From assembly GCF_002952215.1 (NCBI RefSeq), contig NZ_CP022600.1, positions 2,728,001 to 2,792,000 of the forward strand: a DNA stretch of 64,000 bases. The letters run 5' to 3'. Shown here piece by piece: positions 49,135 through 63,898 of the stretch. The notes under the pieces are model-generated. The model ran no database searches, was not told where the DNA came from, and worked only from the letters and a program-made list of their open reading frames with translations. The first letter of the stretch is position 1. Each line of letters begins with the position of its first letter. The position numbers and the translations under genes are program-made. Source of the DNA: Porphyrobacter sp. HT-58-2 (lineage in GTDB: Bacteria; Pseudomonadota; Alphaproteobacteria; Sphingomonadales; Sphingomonadaceae).

Positions 49135-50100
49135 TCAGGGTTTTGGCGGCGCGCTCCACCACGAAAGCGTCTGGTTGTCGTGGGCCGATGTCCACACGCC
49201 TGCGGGCGTCCAGCGCAGCGCGCCGCTGCCCACCGCCGCACCCATCCGCGCGCGGATCGCGCCGCTCTCGGGATCGATCACCACCATCGTCTGATCGTCA
49301 GTGGTGCGCAGCCACACCGCCCCGCCGCCGGTGTCGATATCGCCCCACTTGAGATTGTCGCCAACCTTGGTGCGGCCCGCCACTGCCAGCGTGTCCGGAT
49401 CGACCTTGGCCACGGTGCCGTCGCCCTGTTCCTGCACCCACACCGCGCCCTCGCCCGCCGCGAGGAAGCCCGGCGTATCGCCCAGCGCCGCGGTGCCGGT
49501 GACGGTGTTGGTGGCCGGGTCGATCCGCTGGAGCAGCTTGCCCTCGCTGCTGACGGCCCAGATCGCGTCGAAACCATAAGCGAGATACCAGGTCTCAGGC
49601 GCGACCGGGATGGTGGCGATCACTGCGTTGGTGGCTGGATCGATCCGCGCGACCTTGCCGGCCGGGTCGCTCGCCACCCAGACCGAGCCTGCGCCCGCGA
49701 CCACATTGGTCTCGCCCTTGGCATTGGCTAGCCCGGTGGCGACCTTGGCTTCGAGCGTCGCAGTCTCGAGATTGATGCGATAGATCTCCGCACCCTTGCA
49801 ATTGGCGACCCACAGCGACCCTTCGGCAATCGCCATAGTCCCGCACGGGCGCGGCACGGCAAAGCTGGCGAGCTTTTCGGACGTCGACCATTTCTCGACC
49901 CGCCCGTCATTGGTGACCCAGACGGCATCGCCATCGACCGCGAGAAAATCGGCAAAGCCCGGCACCTGCAGCGCCTTTTCGACGAGATCGGGCGCGGGGC
50001 CTTCTGCCGGAGGCGGCGGATCACCCGGGCCGCAGGAAGAGGCCAGCAGGGCCGAAGCCATGAGAAGCGAGAACGGGCGTGCTGCCGGGTATCGGGCCAT
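49135..50100 (-). CDS. Beta-propeller lipoprotein (YncE/Vgb-like repeats)
   Basis: A 321-residue putative lipoprotein (lipobox ASSC, Cys23) with six or more repeats of about 45 residues. Each contains a strand like GAVWVTN or GSVWVASD followed by VARIDPATNAVIATIPV-type segments, the pattern of YncE/virginiamycin-lyase-like propellers. It is exported and membrane-anchored. It is divergent from the ABC transporter operon. The TATTAC-N14-GTAATA operator lies 80 bp upstream, so it may belong to the same regulon. Possible role in binding a ligand or partner at the cell surface; function unknown. Confidence 0.8.
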   Translation of the reverse strand: MARYPAARPFSLLMASALLASSCGPGDPPPPAEGPAPDLVEKALQVPGFADFLAVDGDAVWVTNDGRVEKWSTSEKLASFAVPRPCGTMAIAEGSLWVANCKGAEIYRINLETATLEAKVATGLANAKGETNVVAGAGSVWVASDPAGKVARIDPATNAVIATIPVAPETWYLAYGFDAIWAVSSEGKLLQRIDPATNTVTGTAALGDTPGFLAAGEGAVWVQEQGDGTVAKVDPDTLAVAGRTKVGDNLKWGDIDTGGGAVWLRTTDDQTMVVIDPESGAIRARMGAAVGSGALRWTPAGVWTSAHDNQTLSWWSAPPKP

Positions 50101-50180: not shown

Positions 50181-50206
50181 TATTACACTTTTTAGCAATC
50201 GTAATA
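50181..50206. promoter_or_regulatory. Operator 1 of the NikR-like regulator (TATTAC-N14-GTAATA)
   Basis: A perfect 6-bp inverted repeat, TATTAC and GTAATA, separated by 14 bp, lies between the divergent beta-propeller and ABC-transporter genes. The same repeat with the same spacing recurs at 52945-52970 just before the NikR-like gene, and both copies continue ATT after GTAATA. NikR-family tetramers bind long dyads of this layout. Confidence 0.72.
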
Positions 50207-50267
50207 ATTCCCCATAGACAAAAGCGGCTGATGGGGTGATGCTGCGACTGCGAAAGGATTCCGAATC

Positions 50268-51350
50268 ATGCTCCATCAGCTTCGCCGCGCGGCCCGCTTC
50301 CTCTTGATCGCCTGCGCCTTGGCGGTCGCTGGGTGTTCGGAAACGGAGGGGCCGGCCGAGCCGCGCACCGAATTCACCATCGGCTGGTCGATCTACGCCG
50401 GATGGATGCCCTGGCCCTATGCCGAGCAGGCCGGGATCGTGAAGAAATGGGGCGATAAATACGGCATCACGATCAAGTTCGTGCAGGTCAACGACTATGT
50501 CGAAAGCGTCAACCAGTACACCGCTGGCAAGCTGGACGGGGTGACGGTCGCCAACATGGATGCGCTGACCATTCCGGCGGCGGGCGGCAAGGATACCAGC
50601 GCGATCATCCTCGGCGACTATTCCAACGGCAATGACGCGGTGCTCCTGAAAGGCGCAAGCGATGTGGGGGCGATCAAGGGGCGCGAAGTCAATCTGGTCG
50701 AGCTGTCGGTGTCACACTACCTGCTCGCCCGCGCGCTCGAAAAGAACGGCATGAAGCTGACCGACGTCAAGACGGTCAACACCGCCGATGCCGACATCGC
50801 CAGCGCCTTCGCCTCGCCTGAGGTCACCGCCGCCGTGGCCTGGAACCCGCAGGTGACGACGATGAAGGGCGTTCCCGGCACCACTGCTGTCTTCACCTCG
50901 GCCGATATTCCGGGCGAGATTCTCGATCTGCTGGTGGTCGACACCGCTACGCTCAAGGCCAATCCGAACCTCGGCAAGGCGCTCGCGGGCATCTGGTACG
51001 AGACGATGGCACTGATGGCCAAGCAGGATGCCGAAGGCGCTGCCGCGCGCGCGGCCATGGCCAAGCTGGCTGGCACCACGCCGGAAGCCTTCGAAGGCCA
51101 GCTCGCCACGACCTTCCTCTACACTAACCCGGCAGCGGCGGTGGCGGCAATGGAATCGCCCGATCTCGTCACCACCATGACCCGCGTGCGCGATTTCAGC
51201 TTCGCTCAAGGCTTGTTCGGTCAGGGCGCGCGCTCAGCGGATGCGGTGGGCATGGAGTTCCCCGGCGGCAAGACGCTGGGGGATCCGAACGCGATCACCT
51301 TGCGCTTCGATCCGACGTTCATGCAACTGGCCGCCGACGGCAAGCTGTAA
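50268..51350 (+). CDS. ABC transporter substrate-binding lipoprotein (guanidine/urea-carboxylase-associated)
   Basis: A 360-residue solute-binding lipoprotein (lipobox VAGC, Cys23) of the nitrate/sulfonate/taurine type, with opening FTIGWSIYAGWMPWPYAEQAG and NQYTAGKLDGVTVANMDALTIPAAGG. Homologues of this subtype are encoded with urea-carboxylase-type gene sets and are thought to bring in guanidine or a related compound. First gene of the operon; the permease and ATPase follow. The operator at 50181-50206 lies 61 bp upstream. Confidence 0.9.
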   Translation: MLHQLRRAARFLLIACALAVAGCSETEGPAEPRTEFTIGWSIYAGWMPWPYAEQAGIVKKWGDKYGITIKFVQVNDYVESVNQYTAGKLDGVTVANMDALTIPAAGGKDTSAIILGDYSNGNDAVLLKGASDVGAIKGREVNLVELSVSHYLLARALEKNGMKLTDVKTVNTADADIASAFASPEVTAAVAWNPQVTTMKGVPGTTAVFTSADIPGEILDLLVVDTATLKANPNLGKALAGIWYETMALMAKQDAEGAAARAAMAKLAGTTPEAFEGQLATTFLYTNPAAAVAAMESPDLVTTMTRVRDFSFAQGLFGQGARSADAVGMEFPGGKTLGDPNAITLRFDPTFMQLAADGKL

Positions 51351-51381
51351 GGGCGGCGGGCGGATAGCGGGGGCCGAGGCG

Positions 51382-52197
51382 ATGCGCTGGGTAAACCGCA
51401 CAATCAGCCGCAGCAATGCACTGCTGCTTGGCGCGCTCCCGCTGGGGGTGCTGGCGCTCGGCTATATCTTCGCCGCTGCGGCCCGCCATGCGGGAAATCC
51501 CGCCGACAAGATCCTGCCCCTGCCCGGCGCGATGGCGAGCGCCATGGCGGCGCTGGTGTTCGAAGCCGATCCGCTCTCGGGGCAATACCTGTTCTGGGCT
51601 GATACCATCGCCAGCCTCAGCAGGCTCGGCATGGGCCTCGGCATTGCCACGCTGTCGGCGCTGCTGGTAGGCCTCGTTCTCGGCGCGCTGCCGCCGGTGC
51701 GCGCCACATTTGGTCCAACGGTAACGGCGATCGCGGTCATCCCGCCGATTGCGCTGCTGCCGATCCTGTTCATCACCTTCGGCCTTGGCGAGACCGCCAA
51801 GGTGGCGCTGATCGTGGTCGGGATCACTCCCTTCATGATCCGTGATCTGGCCGGACATATCGCCGCCCTGCCACGCGAACAGGTGGTAAAGTCGCTGACG
51901 CTGGGCGCATCGAGCTGGCAATTGCTGCTGCGCGTCGCCTTGCCGCAGGCCATGCCGCGGCTGATTCAGGCGCTGCGCCTGTCGCTCGGCCCGGCCTGGG
52001 TGTTCCTGATCTCGGCTGAAGCCATCGCGGCGGATGTGGGCCTTGGCTACCGCATCTTCCTTGTCCGGCGCTATCTCGCGATGGACGTGATCCTGCCTTA
52101 TGTTGCGTGGATCGCGTTGCTGGCTGTCGCCATCGATTTCCTGCTGACCCGCACCAGCCGCAGCCTGTTCGGCTGGGCGCACAAGGCGGGGCATTGA
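51382..52197 (+). CDS. ABC transporter permease, TauC/SsuC type
   Basis: A 271-residue inner-membrane permease with about six membrane segments. The ATPase-contact loop is KSLTLGASSWQLLLRVALPQAMPRLIQALRLSLGPAW, the EAA motif of importers. It works with the binding protein (31 bp upstream) and the ATPase (4 bp downstream). Start ATG 51382 is preceded by GCCGAGGC and leads straight into TM1; longer in-frame readings overlap the binding-protein gene. Confidence 0.9.
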   Translation: MRWVNRTISRSNALLLGALPLGVLALGYIFAAAARHAGNPADKILPLPGAMASAMAALVFEADPLSGQYLFWADTIASLSRLGMGLGIATLSALLVGLVLGALPPVRATFGPTVTAIAVIPPIALLPILFITFGLGETAKVALIVVGITPFMIRDLAGHIAALPREQVVKSLTLGASSWQLLLRVALPQAMPRLIQALRLSLGPAWVFLISAEAIAADVGLGYRIFLVRRYLAMDVILPYVAWIALLAVAIDFLLTRTSRSLFGWAHKAGH

Positions 52198-52201
52198 TCG
52201 G

Positions 52202-52975
52202 ATGCTGAGCCTTGCCAACGTCTGGGTCGAATATGGCGAGAGGGTGGTGCTCGAACGCATCAGCCTCGACATTGCCGAGGGCTCTTTCGTGTCGATCATC
52301 GGGCCTTCGGGGGCGGGCAAGAGCAGCCTTTTGCGCGTCATCCTCGGGCAGGACCAACCGAGCCGAGGCAGCATCACCCTAGACGGCGCGCCCCTGCCCA
52401 GGGAATGCGGGCCGGATCGCGGGGTGGTGTTCCAGCGCTATTCGGTCTTCCCGCATCTGACTGTGCTCGGCAATACGCTGCTGGGGCTGGAATTCGCGCA
52501 GGCGCCGCTGGCCGCGCGCCTGTTTGGCGGAACCCGCAAGGCCGCCATCGCGCAGGCGCAGGAAATGCTCGCCGCAGTCGGCCTCGCCGACAGCATGAAC
52601 CTCTACCCCAGCGAAATGTCAGGCGGGATGCAGCAGCGCCTCGCGATTGCGCAGGCGCTGATCAAGCGGCCGCGCATCCTCTTGCTCGACGAGCCGTTCG
52701 GCGCGCTCGATCCCGGCATCCGCACCGACATGCACGCGCTCATCACCCGGCTGTGGCGCGAATTCGGCCTCACCATCGTCATGGTAACCCACGACATCAA
52801 GGAAGCCTTTGGGCTCGGCACGCGGGTGCTCACGCTCGACAAGCGCCGCCACGATCCGCACGCGCCGCATCGTTACGGCGCAGGCGTGATCTACGACATC
52901 ACGCTGACGCGGAAAATGGCGGCGGGGATTGGCGAGGATACTGGTATTACGATTGACACGATTGGTAATAATTGA
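52202..52975 (+). CDS. ABC transporter ATP-binding protein
   Basis: A 257-residue ATPase of the nitrate/taurine importer type. Walker A is GPSGAGKSS, the Q-loop is RGVVFQRYSVFPHLTVLGN, the signature is MSGGMQQRLAIAQAL, Walker B is ILLLDEPFGALD and the switch histidine is in VMVTHDIKEAF. The last dozen residues (TGITIDTIGNN) are encoded by the second TATTAC-N14-GTAATA operator, so the tail is probably not under protein-level selection. Confidence 0.93.
   Translation: MLSLANVWVEYGERVVLERISLDIAEGSFVSIIGPSGAGKSSLLRVILGQDQPSRGSITLDGAPLPRECGPDRGVVFQRYSVFPHLTVLGNTLLGLEFAQAPLAARLFGGTRKAAIAQAQEMLAAVGLADSMNLYPSEMSGGMQQRLAIAQALIKRPRILLLDEPFGALDPGIRTDMHALITRLWREFGLTIVMVTHDIKEAFGLGTRVLTLDKRRHDPHAPHRYGAGVIYDITLTRKMAAGIGEDTGITIDTIGNN
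52945..52970. promoter_or_regulatory. Operator 2 of the NikR-like regulator (TATTAC-N14-GTAATA)
   Basis: A perfect copy of the inverted repeat at 50181-50206, with identical half-sites and spacing. It overlaps the 3' end of the ATPase gene and ends 17 bp before the NikR-like start. A TTGACA (52953-52958) lies between the half-sites and could be the -35 of an internal promoter. Binding here would give autoregulation and control of the downstream catabolic genes. Confidence 0.72.
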
Positions 52976-52987
52976 GATGGCCAAACC

Positions 52988-53500
52988 ATGAGCACTCCAG
53001 AGCCTTCGCGCCCCGAACCTGCACGGTTGGCCCGCCTGTCCATGAGCCTTCCGGCAGACCTGTTCCGCCAGCTCGACGTGATGGTGGAAGAACGCGGGCT
53101 CCCGTCCCGCTCGCAGCTGATCGCCGAGCTGATCCGTCATGCACTGGCCGAGCATGAGGCACTGACCCGCCCGGACGATATGCTCGCTGGCACGGTCACC
53201 ATCGTCTATGCCGGCGGCGGCGGAAGGGTGCGCCAGCAGCTTGCCGAGACCCAGAGCGATTACCTCAAGGAGGTCATCTCCTCGCAGCACGTCTTCCTCG
53301 AACAGGATCAGTCGCTTGAAGTGCTGCTGGTGCAAGGCCCGGCAGTGCGGCTGAAGCAGATGTGCGATGCATTGCGCAAGATCAGGGGCGTGCAGCAATT
53401 GCAGCTGGTCACCACCACCGCCCTGCTGCCGCCGCTGCACGAACAGGACGCAGCCGGTGCGCCAGATGCGACCGACCCCGCGCAGGAGGCCGCCGAATGA
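52988..53500 (+). CDS. NikR-like ribbon-helix-helix regulator without the nickel site
   Basis: A 170-residue regulator of NikR architecture. The ribbon-helix-helix domain (about 14-57) has RLSMSLPADLFRQLDVMVEE and RSQLIAELIRHALAEH. An ACT-like C-terminal domain follows (about 67-145) with VISSQHVFLEQDQSLEVLLVQG. Aligned to Escherichia coli NikR, the high-affinity nickel ligands His76, His87, His89 and Cys95 become Ser90, His101, Phe103 and Ser109, so only one is kept. Nickel sensing is therefore unlikely; the effector may be guanidine, a pathway intermediate or a nitrogen signal. It sits between transporter and catabolic genes (ATGA overlap with the next gene) and is flanked by its presumed operators. 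Confidence 0.85.
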   Translation: MSTPEPSRPEPARLARLSMSLPADLFRQLDVMVEERGLPSRSQLIAELIRHALAEHEALTRPDDMLAGTVTIVYAGGGGRVRQQLAETQSDYLKEVISSQHVFLEQDQSLEVLLVQGPAVRLKQMCDALRKIRGVQQLQLVTTTALLPPLHEQDAAGAPDATDPAQEAAE

Positions 53501-54318
53501 GCCAGACGGCAGATCCGAAGGCCGCCCGCGAACACGCCCGCGCCCAAGGCGGCACGCGGGTAGAGACCATGCCGATCCTCCCGCCGGTGGCCGACGACCT
53601 GCCCGACGATGTTGCCCCTGCCGACCTCGTTTGGGAGGAAACCGTCGCGCCGGGGGGCTACACCTCGCGGAGGCTGTCACGCGGCACCCGCCTGCGCCTG
53701 ATCGACAAGGGCGGCGATGCCTGCGCCTCGCTCAACATCTTCAATGCCGAATTGCCGACCGAACGGCTCAATGTTGCCGACACCGTCAAGGTACAATGGA
53801 ACGCCTACCTCGGTGTCGGCAAACTGCTGCTGTCGGACATGGGCCGGGTGCTGATGAGCATCCTTGCCGACGATGCGGAAACCCATGACGCTTTCTGCGG
53901 CACCTCCAACGCCGCCACCAATGAAGCGAAATATGGCGAGGGGCGCAATTCCGGCGCCTTCCCCAATGGTCGCGACCGGCTGATCCTGGGCGCGGCCAAG
54001 CACGGGCTGACGCGGCGCGATGTTCACCCGTGCATCAACCTGTTCAAGGGCACGCGGATCGAGGCCGACGGGGCGATCACGCCGGTCATCGGCCCCTTCG
54101 CTCCGGGACGCAGCGTGGTTCTGCGGGCCGAGATGGACGTGATCGTGGTCATCGCCAACTGCCCCCACGTGCGCGACCCGCGCCCCGAATATTGCTCCAC
54201 CCCGCTGCGCCTCACCGCATGGCGCGGCGCGATCACGCCCGAAACCGACCCGCTGCGCAATGCCACGCCAGAAGGGCAGCGCGCCTTCCTCAATGTCGAG
54301 GACTATTACCGCCGCTGA
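53497..54318 (+). CDS. Urea-carboxylase-associated protein 2 / carboxyguanidine deiminase subunit (DUF1989)
   Basis: A 273-residue DUF1989 protein. Features are GGYTSRRLSRGTRLRLID, GDACASLNIFNAEL, CGTSNAATNEAKYGEG, RDVHPCINLFKG and VVLRAEMDVIVVIANCPHV. Proteins of this type, long called urea-carboxylase-associated proteins, have been shown in other bacteria to form a two-subunit carboxyguanidine deiminase, converting carboxyguanidine to allophanate and ammonia. The partner is the next gene (17-bp gap). Metal binding through conserved Cys and His is expected. Confidence 0.88.
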   Translation: MSQTADPKAAREHARAQGGTRVETMPILPPVADDLPDDVAPADLVWEETVAPGGYTSRRLSRGTRLRLIDKGGDACASLNIFNAELPTERLNVADTVKVQWNAYLGVGKLLLSDMGRVLMSILADDAETHDAFCGTSNAATNEAKYGEGRNSGAFPNGRDRLILGAAKHGLTRRDVHPCINLFKGTRIEADGAITPVIGPFAPGRSVVLRAEMDVIVVIANCPHVRDPRPEYCSTPLRLTAWRGAITPETDPLRNATPEGQRAFLNVEDYYRR

Positions 54319-54335: not shown

Positions 54336-54971
54336 ATGACTGACGATACGGCCCTCTCCGGCCTTTCCGGTTCCATCGTTCTCGACACCATCGTCCCGGA
54401 ACGTGCGCCCTGGCTGCACCATGTTGCCAAGGGGCAGACGCTGCGCATCGTCGATGTCGAGGGCAATCAGGCGGTCGATTTCCTGATCTATGCCGCCTCC
54501 GACGATGCCGAGCGTTATTCGGCGCAGGACACCGTCGCCGCGCAGGGCAACCTGTTCCTGCGCACCGGCACCGTGCTGCTGTCGAACGAGGGCAACCCGA
54601 TGATGACGATCGCCGGCTCCGCGGTCGATTATCACGACACGATCGGCGGGGCGTGTTCGTGCGAATCCAATACTTTGCGCTACGGACATCACACGAGACA
54701 TCAGCACGCCTGCGTCGACAATTTCCTCGAAGCCAACCTCACCCAAGGGCGCGGCAAGCGCGACATCGTGTCCAACATCAACTTCTTCATGAACGTGCCG
54801 GTGGAAGAGGATGGAACGCTCGGGATTGTCGACGGAATTTCAGCACCGGGCCTGACAGTCGATCTCAGAGCCGAGATGGACGTGGTCGTGGTCGTGTCCA
54901 ACTGCCCGCAAATCAACAATCCCTGCAACGCCTTCAACCCCACCCCCGTGCGCATGATCGTTGCGGCATGA
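54336..54971 (+). CDS. Urea-carboxylase-associated protein 1 / carboxyguanidine deiminase subunit (DUF1989)
   Basis: A 211-residue DUF1989 paralogue of the preceding protein and its likely partner. Family segments are GQTLRIVDVEGNQAVDFLIY, RYSAQDTVAAQGNLFL, GGACSCESNTLRYG, SNINFFMNVPVEEDG and LRAEMDVVVVVSNCPQINNPCN. CAGGAAAAC precedes the ATG. Its stop overlaps the start of the carboxylase gene (ATGA, 54968-54971), so deiminase and carboxylase should be made in step. Confidence 0.88.
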   Translation: MTDDTALSGLSGSIVLDTIVPERAPWLHHVAKGQTLRIVDVEGNQAVDFLIYAASDDAERYSAQDTVAAQGNLFLRTGTVLLSNEGNPMMTIAGSAVDYHDTIGGACSCESNTLRYGHHTRHQHACVDNFLEANLTQGRGKRDIVSNINFFMNVPVEEDGTLGIVDGISAPGLTVDLRAEMDVVVVVSNCPQINNPCNAFNPTPVRMIVAA

Positions 54972-57900
54972 GTTTCGACACGGTCCTCGTCGCCAATCGG
55001 GGCGCGATTGCCACCCGGATCATCCGCACCTGTCGGCGGATGGGGCTGAAATCGGTGGCGGTCTATTCCGAGGCCGATGCAGGCTCGCTCCACGTGGCGC
55101 AGGCCGATGTGGCGGTGTGCATCGGCCCCGCCCCCGCCGCCGAAAGCTACCTCAACGTCGCCGCGATTCTTGCCGCAGCGCAGGCGACCGGCGCGGGTGC
55201 AATCCATCCGGGCTACGGCTTCCTCGCCGAGAACGCCGACTTCGCCGAACAATGCGCCGCGGTGGGAATCGCCTTCATCGGGCCGACGCCTGACAACATC
55301 CGCACCTTCGGCCTCAAGCATTCCGCCCGCGCACTGGCCGAGGCGCATGACCTGCCGCTCGCTCCCGGCACGGGCCTCTTGACCGGCGAGGACGAGGCGG
55401 CAGAGGCTGCCGCGCGCATCGGCTATCCGGTGATGCTCAAGGCCACGGCAGGCGGCGGCGGCATCGGCATGCGGATCTGCGAAACCGAGGCCGCCGTGCG
55501 CGAGGGCTTTGCCGCTGTCGTCCGGCAGGGGCAGGCGAGTTTCGGCGATGCGGGCGTGTTCCTTGAACGCTACATCGCCAATGCCCGCCACATCGAGGTG
55601 CAGGTCTTCGGCGACGGGCAGGGCCGCGTCATGGCGCTGGGCGAACGCGACTGTTCGCTCCAGCGCCGCAACCAGAAGGTGGTCGAGGAAGCCCCCGCCC
55701 CCAACCTGCCTGAAGCCAAGCGCGCCGCGCTGATCGCGGCGGCGGTGCGATTGGGCGAAGTGGCACGATACCTTTCGGCGGGAACGGTCGAATTCCTCTA
55801 TGATGCCGACCGCGCGGAATTCTTCTTCCTCGAAATGAACACCCGGCTTCAGGTCGAACACGGCGTCACCGAGGAGGTGATGGGGATCGACCTCGTCGAA
55901 TGGATGATCCGCGGCGCGGCGGGCGATTTCGCCATGCTGGATGCCCCAGCGCCGACCCCCAAGGGCCATAGCGTGCAGGTGCGGCTCTACGCTGAAGACC
56001 CGGCATTGGATTACCGCCCGACCACGGGCAAGCTTACCAATGTCGTCTTTCCCGGCGATGTCAGGGCCGAGACCTGGGTGATGGCGGGCAGCAATGTCAG
56101 CGCCTTTTACGATCCGATGCTGGCCAAGCTGATTACACATGCGGCAACCCGCGAGGACGCGATTGCGGCGATGCAGGTCGCGCTCGCAGCATCGCGCGTG
56201 GACGGGATCGAGACCAACCTCAGGTGGCTGCGCGATGTGCTCGGCGAACCCCGCTTCATCAGCGGCGATGTCACCACCCGCCTGCTGGCGAGCGTCACCC
56301 ACCACCCCGCCAGCATCCGGGTAATCTCCGGCGGCACATCGACCACGGTGCAGGACTGGCCCGGCCGGCTCGGCCTGTGGGACGTGGGCGTGCCGCCTTC
56401 GGGGCCGATGGATGATCGCTCGCTTCGGCTCGGCAATCTGCTGCTCGGCAACCCCGAAGGCACGGCGGGGCTGGAAATCACTGCCAGCGGCCCGACCCTG
56501 CTGTTTGAGGCACCTGCGCGCATCTGCCTGACGGGCGCGGATTTCGGCGCGAAGCTGGACGGCGCGCCGGTGGCGCTCGGCCAGCCGCTCGACGTTGCCG
56601 CCGGGCAGACGCTTGCCATGGGGCGGGTCAGCGGCGGGGGGATGCGCGGCTATATCCTGTTCGCGGGCGGGCTCGACATTCCCGCCTATCTCGGCAGCGC
56701 GAGCACCTTCACGCTCGGCCAGTTCGGCGGCCACGCCGCGCGCGCGCTGGTGGCGGGCGATGTGCTGCACCTCGCCGGGGGCGAGACCACGGCCCCGGCA
56801 CTGGCCGGGGGCCTGCCACCGCTCGGCAAGAGCTGGGAGCTGCGCGTCCTCTACGGCCCCCACGGCACGCCCGATTTCTTCACGCCGGATGATATCGCCC
56901 GCTTCCTCGCCGCCGATTGGCAGGTGCATTACAACTCCAACCGCACCGGGGTGCGTCTCGTCGGTCCCAAGCCGGAATGGGCGCGGCGCGACGGGGGCGA
57001 GGCGGGGCTGCATCCGTCGAACATCCACGACAACCCCTATGCCATCGGCGCGGTCGATTTCACCGGCGACATGCCGATCATCCTCGGGCCGGACGGGCCA
57101 TCGCTGGGCGGGTTCGTCTGCCCCTTCACCGTGATCGCCGCCGACCGCTGGAAGATCGGGCAACTTGCGCCCGATGACCGGGTGCGCTTCGTCCCCGTCA
57201 CCATCGACGACGCCATGGCTGCCGACGCCGCGCCGCTCACCGCCCTGCCCGCGCCGACAGCAGCGCGAAGCATTGCCACCCTCTCCCCGATCCTCGCCGA
57301 ATTGCCCGCGCAAGGCGCCCGCCCGCGCGTCACATGGCGCCAGCAGGGGGATCGCAACATCCTCGTCGAATATGGCGAGATCGTGCTCGATATCGAACTG
57401 CGCATCCGCGTCCACGCGCTGATGCAGCAGCTCGAAGCGATGCAGCTTCCCGGCGTGATCGACATCACCCCCGGCATCCGTTCGCTGCAATTGCATTTCG
57501 ACGGCAAGGTGCTCGATCAGGCGGGCGCGCTCGCGGCGCTGATGCAGGCCGAGGAGGCAATGGGCGATCTGGAGGATTTCACCACGCCGTCGCGCATCGT
57601 CCACCTGCCGCTGAGCTGGCGCGATCCCGCGATCACCGAGACCATCGAGAAATACATGGGCGCAGTGCGCGACGATGCGCCGTGGTGCCCGGACAATATC
57701 GAGTTCATCCGCCGCATCAACGGCCTTGCCGATACGCAGGCGGTGGAAGACCTGATCTTCGATGCCAGCTACCTCGTGCTAGGCCTCGGCGATGTCTATC
57801 TCGGCGCGCCGGTGGCGACACCGGTCGATCCGCGCCACCGGCTGGTGACCACCAAATACAATCCCGCGCGCACCTGGACCCCGCCCAACGTGGTCGGCAT

Positions 57901-58552
57901 CGGTGGGGCTTACATGTGCATCTACGGCATGGAAGGGCCGGGCGGTTACCAGCTGTTCGGGCGCACCATCCAGGTGTGGAACACCCACCGGCAAACCGAT
58001 GCTTTCGTCGATGGCAAGCCGTGGCTGCTCAGGTTCTTCGACCAGATCCGCTTCTATCCGGTCTCGGCAGAGGAACTGGCCGAATGGCGGCGCGATTTTC
58101 CCACCGGGCGGCGGTCGATCCGGGTGGAGGAGACCACCTTCCGCCTCGCCGATTACCGCGCCTTCCTGAAGGAAAATGCCGACAGCATCGCCACGTTCGA
58201 GGCCCAGCGACAGGCCGCCTTCGATGCCGAACGCGCCGCGTGGGAGGCAAGCGGCGAATTCGACCGCGTCACCGATCTGCTTGCCGAAGATGCGCCCGGA
58301 GCGGCCGAAGCCATCGACCTGCCCGAAGGTACCGACCTGATCGAGGCGCCCTTTGGCGGCTCTGTGTGGAAGCTGCTGGTCGCTCCCGGTGACGAGGTGG
58401 CCGAAGGCGAGGTTATCGCCGTGATCGAGGCGATGAAGATGGAATGCCCCTTGGAAAGCCCGGCCAGTGGCACCATCGCCGCGCTCTATATCGAGGAACG
58501 CCAGTCGCTCCAGCCTGGCGCGCCGATGCTGGCGCTGAGGAGAGCCTCGTGA
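54968..58552 (+). CDS. Biotin-dependent guanidine/urea carboxylase
   Basis: A 1194-residue carboxylase. Residues 1-450 are biotin carboxylase (VANRGAIATRIIRTC, KATAGGGGIGMRI, FFLEMNTRLQVEHGVTE). About 465-1010 is the carboxyltransferase region with KipA-like then KipI-like domains (TTVQDWPGRLGLWDVGVPPSG; DGGEAGLHPSNIHD). The C-terminal biotinyl domain carries the acceptor lysine in EAMKMEC (Lys1157). Classically called urea carboxylase; homologues in clusters with two DUF1989 proteins prefer guanidine. The residue reported to separate the two groups appears as Asp697 (AVDFTGDMP), which would favour guanidine; I recall this from the literature and cannot verify it here. ATP and bicarbonate are cosubstrates. 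Confidence 0.92.
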   Translation: MSFDTVLVANRGAIATRIIRTCRRMGLKSVAVYSEADAGSLHVAQADVAVCIGPAPAAESYLNVAAILAAAQATGAGAIHPGYGFLAENADFAEQCAAVGIAFIGPTPDNIRTFGLKHSARALAEAHDLPLAPGTGLLTGEDEAAEAAARIGYPVMLKATAGGGGIGMRICETEAAVREGFAAVVRQGQASFGDAGVFLERYIANARHIEVQVFGDGQGRVMALGERDCSLQRRNQKVVEEAPAPNLPEAKRAALIAAAVRLGEVARYLSAGTVEFLYDADRAEFFFLEMNTRLQVEHGVTEEVMGIDLVEWMIRGAAGDFAMLDAPAPTPKGHSVQVRLYAEDPALDYRPTTGKLTNVVFPGDVRAETWVMAGSNVSAFYDPMLAKLITHAATREDAIAAMQVALAASRVDGIETNLRWLRDVLGEPRFISGDVTTRLLASVTHHPASIRVISGGTSTTVQDWPGRLGLWDVGVPPSGPMDDRSLRLGNLLLGNPEGTAGLEITASGPTLLFEAPARICLTGADFGAKLDGAPVALGQPLDVAAGQTLAMGRVSGGGMRGYILFAGGLDIPAYLGSASTFTLGQFGGHAARALVAGDVLHLAGGETTAPALAGGLPPLGKSWELRVLYGPHGTPDFFTPDDIARFLAADWQVHYNSNRTGVRLVGPKPEWARRDGGEAGLHPSNIHDNPYAIGAVDFTGDMPIILGPDGPSLGGFVCPFTVIAADRWKIGQLAPDDRVRFVPVTIDDAMAADAAPLTALPAPTAARSIATLSPILAELPAQGARPRVTWRQQGDRNILVEYGEIVLDIELRIRVHALMQQLEAMQLPGVIDITPGIRSLQLHFDGKVLDQAGALAALMQAEEAMGDLEDFTTPSRIVHLPLSWRDPAITETIEKYMGAVRDDAPWCPDNIEFIRRINGLADTQAVEDLIFDASYLVLGLGDVYLGAPVATPVDPRHRLVTTKYNPARTWTPPNVVGIGGAYMCIYGMEGPGGYQLFGRTIQVWNTHRQTDAFVDGKPWLLRFFDQIRFYPVSAEELAEWRRDFPTGRRSIRVEETTFRLADYRAFLKENADSIATFEAQRQAAFDAERAAWEASGEFDRVTDLLAEDAPGAAEAIDLPEGTDLIEAPFGGSVWKLLVAPGDEVAEGEVIAVIEAMKMECPLESPASGTIAALYIEERQSLQPGAPMLALRRAS

Positions 58553-60315
58553 CCGCGCCCGAACGCCTTTCCGCCGGGGCCATCGCAGCCGCCGTCACTG
58601 CGGGCGAGAGCAGCGCGGTCGCGGTGATGGAAGCCACGCTCGCCCGGCTCGCCGCCTATGACGCGATCCAGCCGCAGGTGTGGATCAGCCGCGCCGACCC
58701 GCAAGCCCTGCTGGACGCCGCCCGCGCCATCGACGCGCGCGTGGCGGCAGGCGAGTACCTGCCGCTGGCAGGCGTGCCCTATGCCGCCAAGGACAATATC
58801 GATGTTGCGGGGCTTGAGACCACCGCCGCCTGCCCCGCCTTCGCCTATCAGCCGGAACGCTCGGCGACGGTGATCGAACGGCTTGAGGGGGCGGGCGCGA
58901 TCTGCGTCGGCAAGACCAATCTCGACCAGTTCGCCACCGGCCTTGTCGGTACGCGCAGCCCCTATGGCGCGCCGCGCAACGCCAGCAACCTCGCCTATGT
59001 CAGCGGCGGATCGAGTTCCGGCTCGGCGGTGGCGGTGGCGGCGGGGCTGGTCGCCTTCGCGCTCGCCACCGATACGGCGGGATCGGGGCGGGTTCCGGCG
59101 GCGTTCAACCACCTCGTCGGGCTGAAGCCGACCAAGGGCCGCTGGAGCACGCAGGGGCTGGTGCCCGCGTGTCGCAGCATCGACTGCATCACCGTGTTCA
59201 CCGACGCGCCCGGCGATGCGGCGCTGGTCGACAGCGTGGTTGCGGGGTTCGATGCGGCCGACCCCTTCTCGCGCCCGCTGGCCGATGTGGCGATTGCGGG
59301 CAAGCGCATCGGCGTTCCGCGCCCTGACCAGCGGGTGTTCTTCGGCGATTTGCAGTCGGAGGAACTCTACGCGCGCGCACTGGCGGTGCTGGGCCAGACG
59401 CACGCGCTGGTCGAAGTGGACATCGCCCCGCTGCTCGAAGCCGCGCAATTGCTCTATGGCGGGCCGTGGGTGGCCGAGCGCACTGCTGCGGTCGAAGCCC
59501 TGCTGCAGAGCGATCCCGATGCTATCGAACCCACCGTGCGCAGCATCCTTGAACCCGGTCTCGCAATGACCGCGGTCGAGACCTGGAACGGGATCTATCG
59601 CCTCGCCGAACTCGCCCGCCATGCCGAGGCACTGTGGCACCACGTCGATGCGCTCGCCTTCCCCACCACTGGCACCACCTATCGCGTCGCCGAACTGGCC
59701 GCGGCGCCGGTGGCGCTCAACAGCAATCTCGGGCGCTACACCAATTTCGTCAATTTGTTGGACATGGCTGCGGTCGCGGTACCGGCAGGCGCGCGGCACA
59801 ACGGCACAGGCTTCGGCATCACTCTGATCGGCCCGGCGCACAGCGACCTCGCGCTGATCGCCATGGCGCAGGATTATCTCGCAGCCGCAATGCTTCCCGC
59901 CCTCCCCCCGCTTGACCTTGGAGACCACATGGACACCGTCAAACTCGCCGTCGTCGGCGCGCATCTTGAAGGCATGCCGCTGCACTGGCAGCTCACCAGC
60001 CGGAGCGCGAAATTCATCGGTGCATTCACCACCGCGCCGACCTATCGCCTTTACGCCATGGCCGATTCTGTTCCGCCCAAGCCTGCCCTCGTGCACAGCC
60101 CCGATGGCGGCGAAATCGCACTCGAGGTGTATGAGCTGGGCATGGCCGAATTCGGCAGCTTCGTTGCCGAAGTCCCGCCGCCGCTGGCGATCGGCACGGT
60201 CACGCTTGCCGACGGCACCAGCGTCAAGGGCTTCGTCGCCGAGCCGCGCGCGACCCTTGGGGCCGAGGACATCACCCATCTGGGCGGCTGGCGCGCCTAT
60301 ATCGGGAGGGACTGA
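58549..60315 (+). CDS. atzF: Allophanate hydrolase AtzF
   Basis: A 588-residue amidase-signature enzyme that cleaves allophanate to two ammonia and CO2, the last step of the pathway. The catalytic triad is visible as Lys81 (AAKDNID), Ser155 (SGGSSSGSA) and Ser179 (DTAGSGRVP). A C-terminal domain (about 465-588, DTVKLAVVGAHLEGMPLHWQL) is the small allophanate-hydrolase domain. The start is GTG in a GTGA overlap with the carboxylase stop, with GAGGAG before it. An ATG-free in-frame extension upstream lies in the carboxylase gene and is rejected. Confidence 0.95.
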   Translation: MTAPERLSAGAIAAAVTAGESSAVAVMEATLARLAAYDAIQPQVWISRADPQALLDAARAIDARVAAGEYLPLAGVPYAAKDNIDVAGLETTAACPAFAYQPERSATVIERLEGAGAICVGKTNLDQFATGLVGTRSPYGAPRNASNLAYVSGGSSSGSAVAVAAGLVAFALATDTAGSGRVPAAFNHLVGLKPTKGRWSTQGLVPACRSIDCITVFTDAPGDAALVDSVVAGFDAADPFSRPLADVAIAGKRIGVPRPDQRVFFGDLQSEELYARALAVLGQTHALVEVDIAPLLEAAQLLYGGPWVAERTAAVEALLQSDPDAIEPTVRSILEPGLAMTAVETWNGIYRLAELARHAEALWHHVDALAFPTTGTTYRVAELAAAPVALNSNLGRYTNFVNLLDMAAVAVPAGARHNGTGFGITLIGPAHSDLALIAMAQDYLAAAMLPALPPLDLGDHMDTVKLAVVGAHLEGMPLHWQLTSRSAKFIGAFTTAPTYRLYAMADSVPPKPALVHSPDGGEIALEVYELGMAEFGSFVAEVPPPLAIGTVTLADGTSVKGFVAEPRATLGAEDITHLGGWRAYIGRD

Positions 60316-61806
60316 TTGCCGAACGATGCCGCCGATACCCTGCTGACATTGCTGCATGAACGCGGCGAGGATGCGCATGCGGCGACGCTGGCGGCGTTGC
60401 TCGACGATTACGCAGCACTGGCCCGCGCCAAGGACGCTGCCGAAGCCGCCAACGAAGCCAAGACCCGCTTCCTCGCCAGCGTCAGCCACGAGATTCGCTC
60501 GCCGCTCAATGCGATCTACGGCTATGCCCAGCTGCTTGAACGCGGCGAAGGACACAATCCGGTCGAAGCGGGCAAGGTCATCCGCCGCAGCGCCGAACAC
60601 CTGTCCAACCTTGTCGAAGGCCTGCTCGATATCGCGCAGGTCGAAAGCGGATCATTGAAGCTGGCGCGCAACACGATCCGCTTTCCTGCCTTTCTGCGGC
60701 AGGTGGTCGACATGTTCGCTCCGCAAGCGACGATGAAGGGTCTGTCACTCACACTGGATGCACCGCCAAGCCTGCCCGAATTCGTCCGCACCGATCCCAA
60801 GCGTTTGCGGCAGGTGCTTATCAATCTCCTGTCCAACGCCATCAAGTTCACCGATCATGGGACAGTCGCGCTGAAGGTGCATTACCGCAACCAGCTGGCG
60901 CGGTTCGAGGTGGTCGACAGCGGGATCGGCATCCCGCCCGATGACATGGCGCGCATCCTGATGCCGTTCGAGCGCGGCGGCGGCGCTTCCGCAGAGCGGG
61001 CAGGGGTCGGCCTCGGCCTCGCGATCACGCAGGCGCTGGTGCATATCATGGGCGGCGAACTGACGGTGGAGAGCACGCCCGATGAAGGCTCGCGCTTCAT
61101 CGTCCGGCTGATGCTCTCGCAGCCCCTGACGCCGCCTGCGGATCTGCCAGAGGGCGAGACGCCGCACCTTTACCTCGGGCGCGAGCGCAGGCTGTTGCTG
61201 ATCGATGATGATCCCGCACACCGCGAAGCCCTGCGCGCCCTGCTGGAGGCGCGCGGCTTTCGGGTAAAGAGCGCCGCCAGCGGCGAAGAAGGGCTGGCAC
61301 AGGCAGGCGACATGCAGCTCGATCTGGTTCTGCTCGATGTCTCCATGCCGGGCATGAGCGGGTGGGAGACAGCGGCATTGCTGCGCCAGCGCCATGGCCA
61401 ACGGCTCAGGATTGTAATGCTATCGGGCGAAGCGCAGCAGTCGGGCCCGGAGGAGAATGGTGCTCCGGTCAACGATGTGTTCGTGACCAAGCCGTTCGAT
61501 TTCGCCGTGCTGCTCGACGTCATCAGCCAACAGCTCGGTCTGGAATGGCCGCAGCCGCCCACAAGCGCAAAGGACGACGCCCACGCCGCGCTGCCCACCT
61601 TGATGGTGGCAGAGGCCCGGCCCCACTTGGACGAAATCGCACGGCTGGTGCGGATCGGCCATGTCCGCGCGATCGAGGCGCAGATCGATGCCATCGCCGC
61701 GCTAGGACCGCAGGCGGCTGCATTGGCAGAGCGGATGCGCGTGTATCTTGACGCTTTCGACCTCAAGGCGCTGGCAGCGCTGGCGCGGACGGAGAACGGG
61801 ACATGA
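60316..61806 (+). CDS. Soluble hybrid histidine kinase
   Basis: A 496-residue kinase with no membrane segment. A short N-terminal coiled region leads to HisKA (phospho-acceptor His58 in SVSHEIRSPLNA), HATPase (NLLSNAIKF, VVDSGIGIPPDD, GVGLGLAITQ), and a receiver domain (about 295-410) with Asp341 in LLDVSMPGMSG. An 80-residue helical tail may be an Hpt-like or dimer region. The TTG start abuts the AtzF stop directly (TGATTG), with GGAGGG just before, so it is translated with the guanidine operon. It lacks a recognisable sensor domain and may sense a cytosolic signal through a partner. Confidence 0.88.
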   Translation: MPNDAADTLLTLLHERGEDAHAATLAALLDDYAALARAKDAAEAANEAKTRFLASVSHEIRSPLNAIYGYAQLLERGEGHNPVEAGKVIRRSAEHLSNLVEGLLDIAQVESGSLKLARNTIRFPAFLRQVVDMFAPQATMKGLSLTLDAPPSLPEFVRTDPKRLRQVLINLLSNAIKFTDHGTVALKVHYRNQLARFEVVDSGIGIPPDDMARILMPFERGGGASAERAGVGLGLAITQALVHIMGGELTVESTPDEGSRFIVRLMLSQPLTPPADLPEGETPHLYLGRERRLLLIDDDPAHREALRALLEARGFRVKSAASGEEGLAQAGDMQLDLVLLDVSMPGMSGWETAALLRQRHGQRLRIVMLSGEAQQSGPEENGAPVNDVFVTKPFDFAVLLDVISQQLGLEWPQPPTSAKDDAHAALPTLMVAEARPHLDEIARLVRIGHVRAIEAQIDAIAALGPQAAALAERMRVYLDAFDLKALAALARTENGT

Positions 61807-62729
61807 TTGCGACAGACCGCCCATCCAGCGCGCGCGACTGCATTCTGGTGGTCGACGACAATCCTGAATCATTGCGCTTTCTGGTCGATACTCTCGAAGC
61901 AGAAGGCATGGACGTGCTGATCGCTCGCAGCGGCGAGGCAACGCTTGAACTGCTGGGCGAGGTGTTGCCCCATCTCATCCTGATGGATGCGGTGATGCCG
62001 GGCCTGTCGGGGCTGGAGACCACCCGCCGGATCAAGGCGAACCCGGCGAGCGCGCATATCCCGGTGATCTTCATGACCGGCCTGACCGATCCTGATCATG
62101 TCATCGCTGCCCTTGAAACCGGCGGGGTCGACTACGTCCGCAAGCCTGTGGTGGTCGGCGAACTGCTGGCGCGCATGAGGGTGCATCTTGCCAATGCCCG
62201 CGCCTCGTACCGCTCGCGCCTCGCCTTGGGCCGCGCCGGGCGCAGCCTTGCGGCTATCGGCATTGCAGGCGACCTGCTGTGGTGCACGCCGCAGGCCGAG
62301 GGCCTGTTTCAGCGCCTTGACCCTGACTGGGACAGCAACAGCAGCAGGGTGCCGTTAGGCCTTGCTCCCGCCCTTGCCCAATTGCGCGGCGATCCGGGCC
62401 ACGGCAGCAACGTCACGCTCAAGCTTGCCGGGATCGAGATCGAGGTCGCGCTGGCCGAAAGCGACCGCCCCGAAGAGGCGCTGTTCAAGATCACCGAAGT
62501 GGGCGAGGCTTCCAAGGTCGATGTCCTGCTGCGCAACACCGATCTGACCCGGCGCGAGGCCGAGGTGCTGTTGTGGGTCAGCTATGGCAAGACCAACCGC
62601 ACGGTCAGCGAGATTCTCGGCATCAGCCCGCGCACGGTCAACAAGCACCTGGAGCAGGTGTTCCGAAAGCTCGGTGTGGAAACGCGCGCTGCCGCAACTG
62701 CAGTCGCTGTGCGGTATCTTTCTGAATAA
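61803..62729 (+). CDS. Response regulator with receiver and LuxR-type HTH domains
   Basis: A 308-residue regulator. The N-terminal receiver (about 13-125) has acidic pocket VVDDN and phospho-acceptor Asp62 in LMDAVMPGLSG. A middle segment of about 110 residues is not recognised. The C-terminal LuxR helix-turn-helix reads LTRREAEVLLWVSYGKTNRTVSEILGISPRTVNKHLEQVFRKLGV. It overlaps the kinase gene by ATGA and is its cognate partner. It could regulate nitrogen or guanidine genes. Confidence 0.9.
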   Translation: MIATDRPSSARDCILVVDDNPESLRFLVDTLEAEGMDVLIARSGEATLELLGEVLPHLILMDAVMPGLSGLETTRRIKANPASAHIPVIFMTGLTDPDHVIAALETGGVDYVRKPVVVGELLARMRVHLANARASYRSRLALGRAGRSLAAIGIAGDLLWCTPQAEGLFQRLDPDWDSNSSRVPLGLAPALAQLRGDPGHGSNVTLKLAGIEIEVALAESDRPEEALFKITEVGEASKVDVLLRNTDLTRREAEVLLWVSYGKTNRTVSEILGISPRTVNKHLEQVFRKLGVETRAAATAVAVRYLSE

Positions 62730-62890: not shown

Positions 62891-63898
62891 ATGGCCGGAG
62901 TACGGGTTGGAAATCGGATCATCGGGGCAGATTCCCCCGTTACGGTCGGATGGGAGAACATCGGCCGGGTGGAAGGCGGCCCGATCAAGCAGTTTGTCTT
63001 CACCTGGTTCCAGCCGGCCGTCCTGTTCGGCCTGATCGCCTTCTGGTATTACGCCCCCAACGAATGGGCGCTTGCCTCGATCGGGATTGCGATCGGCCTC
63101 GGTTTCAAGGTGCTGCTGCTGGGCCTCGAATGGGTCAATCCGCGGTATCGCAGCTGGCAGCTGACCTGGAAGGAATTCGCCACCGACGTCTTCTATGTCG
63201 GGATGGGCTACACGCTGCTGCGGATCGTTGACGCCTATATCGGCGACGGGGTGATGATCGAGGCTGTTCAGAACGCCTTCGATTGGGAAAAGGTCTCGTG
63301 GTTCACAGGCCTCCCGCTGCTCGTTCAGGCCATCCTGATTTCGATGATTTTCGATTTTGGCCAATACTGGATGCATCGCGGGATGCACAACTGGTATCCG
63401 CTGTGGCTGACCCACGCGCCGCACCACTACATCACCCAGCTCAACATCAACAAAGGCGCGGTCGGAAACCCGGTCGAACTGTTCCTGATCGGTTTGGGGA
63501 TTGGCGGGTTCTTCGATTTCCTGCCCCGCGCGGCCCTGCTGGCGGGCGCGATCGGCATGGCGGTGGGAACCTATCAGCACATCAATGTGCGCTTCAACAC
63601 CCCGCGCTGGTGGAGGTTCATCTTCAACACCACCGAGCATCATTCGGTTCACCATTCGCAGGACTACGAAGCAACCCGCAGCAATTACGCCAGCACCTGG
63701 ATCATCTGGGATCGCATTTTCGGCACCTGCGTCGATGGAGAGGCCGAACTCCTGGGCATGGAGGGCGGTCGCCGCATGGATATCGCCGAAACCATGGTGT
63801 TCCCCTTCACTGAGGGTTACAAGACCTTCAAGGCATGGTTGCGCGGGCGGTTACAGACACCCGAGACTGCCGAGCCGCAGGCGGAGCCGGCCGAGTGA
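62891..63898 (+). CDS. Sterol desaturase / fatty acid hydroxylase family protein
   Basis: A 335-residue membrane di-iron enzyme of the sterol desaturase/fatty acid hydroxylase superfamily. Its histidine boxes are HRGMH (162-166), HAPHH (175-179) and EHHSVHH. Four to five hydrophobic segments anchor it in the inner membrane. The family hydroxylates or desaturates lipids such as hopanoids, carotenoids or fatty acids; in Sphingomonadales carotenoid or hopanoid modification is plausible, but the substrate is not shown. CGGAGTGAG precedes the ATG. The stop overlaps the next gene (GTGA). Confidence 0.88.
   Translation: MAGVRVGNRIIGADSPVTVGWENIGRVEGGPIKQFVFTWFQPAVLFGLIAFWYYAPNEWALASIGIAIGLGFKVLLLGLEWVNPRYRSWQLTWKEFATDVFYVGMGYTLLRIVDAYIGDGVMIEAVQNAFDWEKVSWFTGLPLLVQAILISMIFDFGQYWMHRGMHNWYPLWLTHAPHHYITQLNINKGAVGNPVELFLIGLGIGGFFDFLPRAALLAGAIGMAVGTYQHINVRFNTPRWWRFIFNTTEHHSVHHSQDYEATRSNYASTWIIWDRIFGTCVDGEAELLGMEGGRRMDIAETMVFPFTEGYKTFKAWLRGRLQTPETAEPQAEPAE

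Follow-up and report, generated by a model that had tools for sequence, protein, structure and literature searches.

A NikR-like regulator and its predicted operators in a guanidine-type gene cluster of Porphyrobacter sp. HT-58-2

Which protein, if any, reads two identical inverted repeats in a guanidine-type gene cluster of Porphyrobacter sp. HT-58-2, and to what signal would it respond? We analysed a 64,000-nucleotide stretch of this genome (contig NZ_CP022600.1, positions 2,728,001 to 2,792,000, forward strand; hereafter the window), in which an initial annotation had noted two perfect TATTAC-N14-GTAATA dyads and proposed that a NikR-like protein uses them to control guanidine or urea-carboxylase genes. 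Both dyads are exact, and they agree in their arms, in their 14-bp gap and in the ATT that trails them (operators 1 and 2 in Table 1). Their placement was also described correctly. The 3' end of operator 1 is 61 nt from the ATG of the substrate-binding protein (SBP) gene that opens an ATP-binding cassette (ABC) transporter operon, with the dyad centre 74 nt 5' of that start. Operator 2 overlaps the 3'-terminal codons of the ATPase gene, and its 3' end is 17 nt from the ATG of the nikR-like gene. We consider it likely, on the strength of comparative sequence analysis, that the dyads are operators of a NikR-like repressor that has been repurposed to sense guanidine. The parts of this reading differ in firmness: we are highly confident that the NikR-like protein binds these sites, repression rather than activation appears very likely, and guanidine itself is favoured as the effector with only modest assurance.

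The pattern is confined to this locus. In the whole genome (3,279,145 bases in one contig) TATTAC-N14-GTAATA occurs at these two positions only, so the repeat does not recur at random elsewhere, and a reversed control pattern has no match in the same 3,279,145 bases. There is no third match in the window even when up to two mismatches are allowed; shuffled sequences gave a chance expectation of 0.00 exact matches in the window, and of 0.03 with two mismatches. When gaps of 0-40 were tested in the window, exact TATTAC arm pairs were found at gap 14 only.

Conservation of the dyads and their match to NikR operators

A search of a genome collection with the NikR-like protein returned 95 relatives, 80 of which were kept and represent 79 distinct loci; 78 of these bear names that we take to belong to the Sphingomonadales. 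A dyad with up to two mismatches is present in 78 of the 79 loci, and the exception (L064) has only about 0.4 kb of sequence upstream of its nikR-like gene. An unbiased scan, in which every 6-mer arm was combined with gaps of 6-22 and the loci with a perfect inverted pair were counted, ranks TATTAC with gap 14 first (77/79 loci), the runner-up among all combinations reaching 43. Because the loci are related, they are not 79 independent observations, and the comparison with other pairs outweighs the raw count; nor were redundant loci removed (L018 and L171 probably come from a single genome, and L124 and L125 do). One locus, L054, is titled Candidatus Poribacteria; it shares its dyads base for base with Croceicoccus L053 and L058, and it is probably a mis-binned contig of a metagenome-assembled genome.

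With the window stretch and 12 further stretches added, the set comprises 92 loci, which contain 204 sites with up to one mismatch. Conservation upstream of homologous clusters, on which the initial annotation had staked its proposal, is evident: 191 of the 204 sites lie at most 500 bp upstream of an SBP, NikR-like, UAAP1 or permease homologue and 13 do not, part of the 191 probably serving divergent genes instead. Three loci have no site at this threshold (L064, L124 and L125). Where a site lies no more than 110 nt from an SBP start its placement is regular, the centre being 70-80 nt from the start in 74 of 83 cases (SBP starts in the relatives were extrapolated from tblastn). The base profiles were built from sites picked for at most one arm mismatch, and their arm conservation, which arises by construction, does not count as evidence.

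The co-occurrence of dyad and gene, proposed earlier as a check, was followed in 147 genomes of the order. Nine contain the NikR-like gene (E <= 1e-10), and eight of these nine have the exact dyad, compared with 14 of the 138 other genomes (Fisher p = 5.9e-7). The ninth (G054) encodes a 57% identical protein twice, and in place of the TATTAC dyad each of its nikR-like genes is immediately preceded by GTGTTAC-N14-GTAACAC.

The operator of Escherichia coli NikR is GTATGA-N16-TCATAC. The TATTAC arm had been said to differ from the GTATGA half-site; it does differ, but by only one or two bases in the core arm and not wholesale. The claim that the dyads have a NikR-type layout is upheld by the published signals, which are GTATGAT-[N13/14]-ATCATAC in enterobacteria and GTGTTAC-[N13/14]-GTAACAC in delta-proteobacteria according to the relevant part of PMC545781; signals of the same layout appear in a section of PMC7055735. 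In heptamer register both window sites read (A/G)TATTAC-N14-GTAATAA and thus have the 7-bp arms, N13/14 gap and GTRTKAY-like sequence of a NikR-type operator. They share the register and spacing of the enterobacterial signal, and their arms are close to the delta-proteobacterial one.

Thr5 of E. coli NikR contacts bases. The ribbon-helix-helix strands sit in the major groove of a half-site, as described in part of PMC4486848. NikR-like proteins with Ser at the Thr5 position accompany exact TATTAC arms in 86 loci, with four loci lacking an exact dyad; Gly at this position is found with TGTTAC (two loci of one genome) and Thr with TATGAC (one locus), in a tally restricted to arms that match T[A/G]T[G/T]A[C/T]. 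This suggests that the operator arms vary with the residue at the DNA-reading position, although the relation is suggestive and not conclusive because the non-Ser cases amount to two events. For comparison, 31 stretches with canonical NikR were scanned for GTRTKAY-type dyads. Five were positive, all with Thr: L146, L149 and L154, which belong to one genus, and L162 have exact GTATGAY dyads, and L151 has a near-exact one.

The dyad also accompanies more distant relatives. In Asticcacaulis excentricus the SBP and nikR-like genes diverge from either side of an exact dyad, and the same arrangement is seen in the Methylobacterium-type family, so labelled after the names of protein-search matches, with an exact dyad in G897 and one mismatch in G426 and G932. 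In G798 an exact dyad immediately precedes the nikR-like gene. The NikR-like proteins of Acinetobacter (Gammaproteobacteria) share 33-34% identity with the window protein; UAAP1 (L130) and the ABC permease (L129 and L130) have an exact dyad upstream, and dyads with one mismatch precede the nikR-like and allophanate hydrolase genes. L172, which shows the same three dyads as L130, was left out of the counts.

Some loci have extra dyads in front of other genes: TonB-dependent receptors (L029, L030 and L072), a fatty-acid-hydroxylase (FA_hydroxylase) gene (L021, L026 and L171) and a metallo-beta-lactamase fold gene (L027 and L047). Eight minus-strand reading frames next to extra dyads were family-tested. 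Given these positions, an outer-membrane importer may belong to the regulon. The FA_hydroxylase gene of the window (62891-63898) is without a dyad.

The gene cluster and guanidine riboswitches

The genes behind the dyads follow one another in the order of Table 1, all on the forward strand. UAAP1, UAAP2, the carboxylase and the allophanate hydrolase are adjacent and each scores over its NCBIfam cut-off, which marks the locus as a guanidine carboxylase pathway cluster. From its DUF1989 (UAAP) partners we infer that the carboxylase prefers guanidine over urea, and the transporter operon probably consists of guanidine import genes. A hybrid histidine kinase and a response regulator are encoded directly 3' of the allophanate hydrolase gene (60316-62729). 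The divergent neighbour of operator 1 (49135-50100, reverse strand) has, by eye, the look of a YncE-type beta-propeller lipoprotein; in L132 a YncE-family gene follows the allophanate hydrolase gene.

Table 1. Predicted operators and genes of the cluster, in window coordinates.
Feature	Position	Strand	Basis or remark
Operator 1 (predicted), TATTAC-N14-GTAATA	50181..50206	.	5' of ABC-transporter operon; exact pattern
ABC transporter substrate-binding protein (SBP)	50268..51350	+	TIGR03427 ABC_peri_uca, 530.7 bits, cut-off 333.9
ABC transporter permease	51382..52197	+	PF00528
ABC transporter ATPase	52202..52975	+	PF00005
Operator 2 (predicted), TATTAC-N14-GTAATA	52945..52970	.	5' of nikR-like and degradation genes; exact pattern
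TTGACA, -35-like element inside operator 2	52953..52958	+	conserved TTGAC offset; no -10 recognised
NikR-like regulator, ribbon-helix-helix and NikR_C	52988..53500	+	PF01402, PF08753; nickel ligands largely lost
UAAP1 (DUF1989), carboxyguanidine deiminase-type subunit	53497..54318	+	TIGR03425, 306.7 bits, cut-off 205.95
UAAP2 (DUF1989), carboxyguanidine deiminase-type subunit	54336..54971	+	TIGR03424, 335.1 bits, cut-off 284.7
Urea/guanidine carboxylase	54968..58552	+	TIGR02712, 1773.1 bits, cut-off 1303.85
Allophanate hydrolase	58549..60315	+	TIGR02713, 728.3 bits, cut-off 511.05

The initial annotation had further suggested that this circuit replaces the riboswitch common elsewhere. An Rfam scan of the whole window found no family at gathering score, including no guanidine aptamer, and so a riboswitch at the two sites was rejected; a search of G000 with RF00442 gave no match. 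Among 385 genomes of the class, 22 contain UAAP1 over the cut-off. Eighteen of these have a guanidine-I riboswitch and three have a NikR-like gene (G000, G019 and G426), with no overlap between the two groups, and one genome has neither. In 17 of the 18 the riboswitch is on the same contig as UAAP1 and within about 3.2 kb of it; the 18 include G407, where the two are on different contigs, and G435, whose riboswitch at 62.1 bits narrowly misses the gathering score of 63. The genome with neither, G232, may not contain a true UAAP1: its match of 208.9 bits is barely over the cut-off and includes a stop. Nine further genomes of the class have weak NikR-like matches (E 1e-11 to 1e-8), and three of these (G187, G313 and G485) are among the 18 with guanidine-I. 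Eight of the nine sit among the 28 canonical rows that retain all four nickel ligands (G360 was left out).

Likewise, no guanidine riboswitch reached gathering score in the 29 scanned members of the 79 sphingomonad loci, and none was found in L124, L128, L129 and L166-L169; the L129 record stops short of the region upstream of UAAP1 and is uninformative here. The scanned Sphingomonadales and Asticcacaulis loci agree with a replacement of the riboswitch; three other loci do not. In Acinetobacter baumannii L130 (1771-1990) an exact dyad is followed by a sigma-54-like sequence (recognised by eye), a guanidine-I riboswitch (82 bits) and UAAP1. In two Methylobacterium-type loci, L126 (13530-13579) and L170 (6269-6316), a guanidine-II riboswitch precedes UAAP1 and the dyad is located at the transporter/nikR-like pair, an arrangement that would amount to split control inside one cluster. 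These three loci rule out a strict exclusion between guanidine riboswitches of all kinds and the NikR-like gene; the non-overlap holds for guanidine-I only, within the survey of 385 genomes. In some lineages, then, the NikR-like gene seems to stand in for the riboswitch, and in others to work with it; in both cases the link between the NikR-like regulon and guanidine does not depend solely on how the enzymes are annotated. In favour of the guanidine reading, the Acinetobacter L129 cluster also contains an SMR transporter, a family that includes guanidine exporters. It has in addition a 2OG-Fe(II) oxygenase and a hypothetical gene, annotations that the methylguanidine genes carry in an excerpt of PMC12508155.

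The regulator, its proposed mechanism and alternative explanations

The window protein contains the two domains of NikR, RHH_1 (PF01402, 29.2 bits) and NikR_C (PF08753, 70.5 bits), both over the gathering score. It matches five NCBIfam NikR models, all under the cut-off (best score 95.8 against 105; TIGR02793, 56.8 against 175.45). The AlphaFold2 (AF2) monomer (predicted local distance difference test, pLDDT, 83.8; predicted template modelling score, pTM, 0.62) served to confirm the fold only; among the 50 PDB matches listed, all fold matches are NikR entries. The structure alignment comprises 33 of 36 chosen rows. A NikR-like profile run against 398 genomes phylum-wide gives a bimodal distribution, with nine genomes scoring at least 177 bits and 34 scoring at most 87.7 bits. 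In a tree of 24 NikR-like and 28 canonical proteins a single branch separates the two groups (support 100/98); deep placement was not relied on because long branches were flagged and the root was drawn at the midpoint.

The nickel site of NikR consists of His87, His89 and Cys95 together with His76 of the neighbouring subunit, and Glu30 of E. coli NikR is a potassium ligand (both from a portion of PMC7055735). The window protein keeps only His87 of the four nickel ligands and is not a canonical NikR in this respect. Across 114 NikR-like rows, His87 is invariant (114/114), whereas His76 (1/114), His89 (5/114) and Cys95 (0/114) are largely or entirely lost; each of the four is present in 28/28 canonical rows. 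The Glu30 position (position 43) is Gln in 112/114 NikR-like rows and Glu in 28/28 canonical ones. Conserved residues specific to the NikR-like group include Glu95 (112/114), Gln116 (114/114) and Pro148 (114/114), the last falling in a gap in 25/28 canonical rows. The 114 rows include second copies from 21 loci; rows from L113, L114 (NikR-like) and L119 (canonical) were omitted, the same genes being supplied by L171, L126 and L159. Two NikR-like copies per cluster are found in 21 of the loci L001-L079 (for example L015, L021 and L032), mostly about 3.4 kb apart.

How might the dyads work? A NikR-type tetramer would bridge the two half-sites. Of the 63 sites lying no more than 60 nt from a nikR-like start, 59 have TTGAC two bases beyond the left arm. 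Because operator 2 covers this -35-like element, tetramer binding is predicted to block RNA polymerase and repress transcription. Steric repression would apply to both operons, including the regulator's own gene (autoregulation). Guanidine or a close derivative may then bind the remodelled ACT/NikR_C domain at the former nickel site, now Ser/Phe/His, which together with a nearby conserved Glu and Gln forms the candidate pocket, and the DNA would be released. In window numbering the predicted pocket comprises Glu95, His101, Phe103, Ser109 and Gln116. On this proposal the importer and the carboxylase pathway would be made only when guanidine is present. The protein would do the job of guanidine riboswitches in Sphingomonadales and would work beside them in Acinetobacter and the Methylobacterium-type family.

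A number of observations count against the guanidine-responsive repressor. The exact dyad occurs somewhere in 14 of the 138 genomes of the order that lack the NikR-like gene; in several families of the order to which the window does not belong, the reversed control pattern appears at least as often, and single exact matches there are therefore probably background. Those canonical NikR proteins whose Thr5 position holds Ser (L142) or Gly (L131) do not test the arm code, because their stretches are among the 26 of 31 in which no GTRTKAY-type dyad was found. TTGAC is present in none of the 83 SBP-near sites, and a consensus scan found no sigma-70 promoter and no -10 at either operator; with no recognisable -10, it is the conserved TTGAC that carries the promoter overlap, and the repression geometry is tentative. 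Both Acinetobacter proteins have Gln in place of Glu95, a candidate acidic contact. His87 is retained throughout, so residual metal binding is possible. Finally, two distant relatives accompany creatininase-family genes, which stand behind dyads, away from the carboxylase pathway: L168 (3872-9556) has a creatininase-family gene, a type III glutamine synthetase and an ABC transporter, with no carboxylase cluster in the stretch, and in L167 (9804-11188), which also has a creatininase-family gene, neither a carboxylase cluster nor a transporter homologue was found in the stretch. The effector in the wider clade thus need not be guanidine.

This last point leads to the possibility that the same circuit responds to another effector, be it carboxyguanidine, methylguanidine, allophanate, urea or a nitrogen-status signal. 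The L167 and L168 relatives perhaps represent a second effector within the same clade; in G835 and G844 the NikR-like protein is encoded beside a creatininase-family gene, with dyads TATTAC-N14-GTAATA and TATGAC-N14-GTCATA. The sigma-54-like sequence just downstream of the Acinetobacter UAAP1 dyad hints at nitrogen control. Against these hints stand the guanidine-I and guanidine-II riboswitches found in the same clusters and the lack of overlap between guanidine-I and the NikR-like gene in the UAAP1 genomes of the class, and we regard a different effector as unlikely, if worth serious attention.

The NikR-like protein might instead activate transcription from the sites, as Helicobacter pylori NikR activates or represses (PMC7949043, in part); the SBP-near sites without TTGAC and the dyad upstream of the sigma-54-like sequence in Acinetobacter would agree with this. 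The fixed offset of the -35-like TTGAC inside the dyads near nikR-like genes is, however, a repressor position, which makes activation a distinctly less plausible mode of action. It is improbable, too, that the protein is still a regulator responding to nickel or another metal, for example one that controls a urease-independent nitrogen route under nickel shortage. The NikR fold, the operator and the invariant His87 are compatible with such a role, but the other ligands and Glu30 have been replaced in nearly all NikR-like rows, and no nickel transporter or nickel enzyme is present among the family-tested genes behind the dyads.

That an unrelated regulator binds the dyads, the nikR-like gene being a bystander, we consider very improbable. 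The dyad is assigned to the NikR-like protein by comparison: the NikR geometry, the site before nikR-like itself, the co-occurrence in the order and the variation of arm with residue all point to the neighbouring gene, and the same observations support the control circuit that had been proposed for the guanidine and carboxylase genes. A role of the repeats at the RNA level, as hairpins of a terminator or an attenuator, can be set aside, for although they are inverted, their folding energy is no better than that of shuffles (z = -0.12 and -0.38) and no terminator-like site is present at either dyad.

Comparison with known systems

Literature searches combining NikR with guanidine, guanidine carboxylase and urea carboxylase, within open-access coverage, found no report of this circuit among the matches listed; the part of PMC2667541 that matched NikR and urea carboxylase contains no guanidine link. 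On balance we favour the view that a widespread branch of NikR has swapped nickel for guanidine, giving a protein guanidine sensor that has an operator code of its own. In Sphingomonadales this sensor would take the place of riboswitches, whereas in Acinetobacter and the Methylobacterium-type family the two would be stacked. If this is correct, a metalloregulator has become a sensor of a small molecule without giving up its DNA code, and a protein sensor and an RNA sensor trade places over one pathway. The locus offers a concrete, testable candidate, complete with operator and regulon.

The likeness to NikR extends to the ribbon-helix-helix and NikR_C architecture, the dyad register, the spacing and the series of arms, those of L124 and L125 being identical to the delta-proteobacterial consensus GTGTTAC-[N13/14]-GTAACAC. 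Unlike NikR, the protein has largely lost the nickel ligands, adjoins guanidine-type genes instead of nickel uptake genes and falls on its own side of the tree. With the guanidine riboswitches it shares the genes downstream, which in other genomes are the ABC importer, the DUF1989 pair, the carboxylase and the allophanate hydrolase; the riboswitches are RNA sensors, whereas the control proposed here from sequence would be exerted at the DNA level by a protein. The window has all four enzyme genes of the guanidine carboxylase pathway (GC, CgdAB, AtzF) over their cut-offs, in keeping with the pathway as outlined in part of PMC9800807. The enzymes themselves offer nothing notable by comparison with that pathway, and it is the regulator that makes the difference: the new element is probably the operator logic of NikR joined to a new effector, guanidine.

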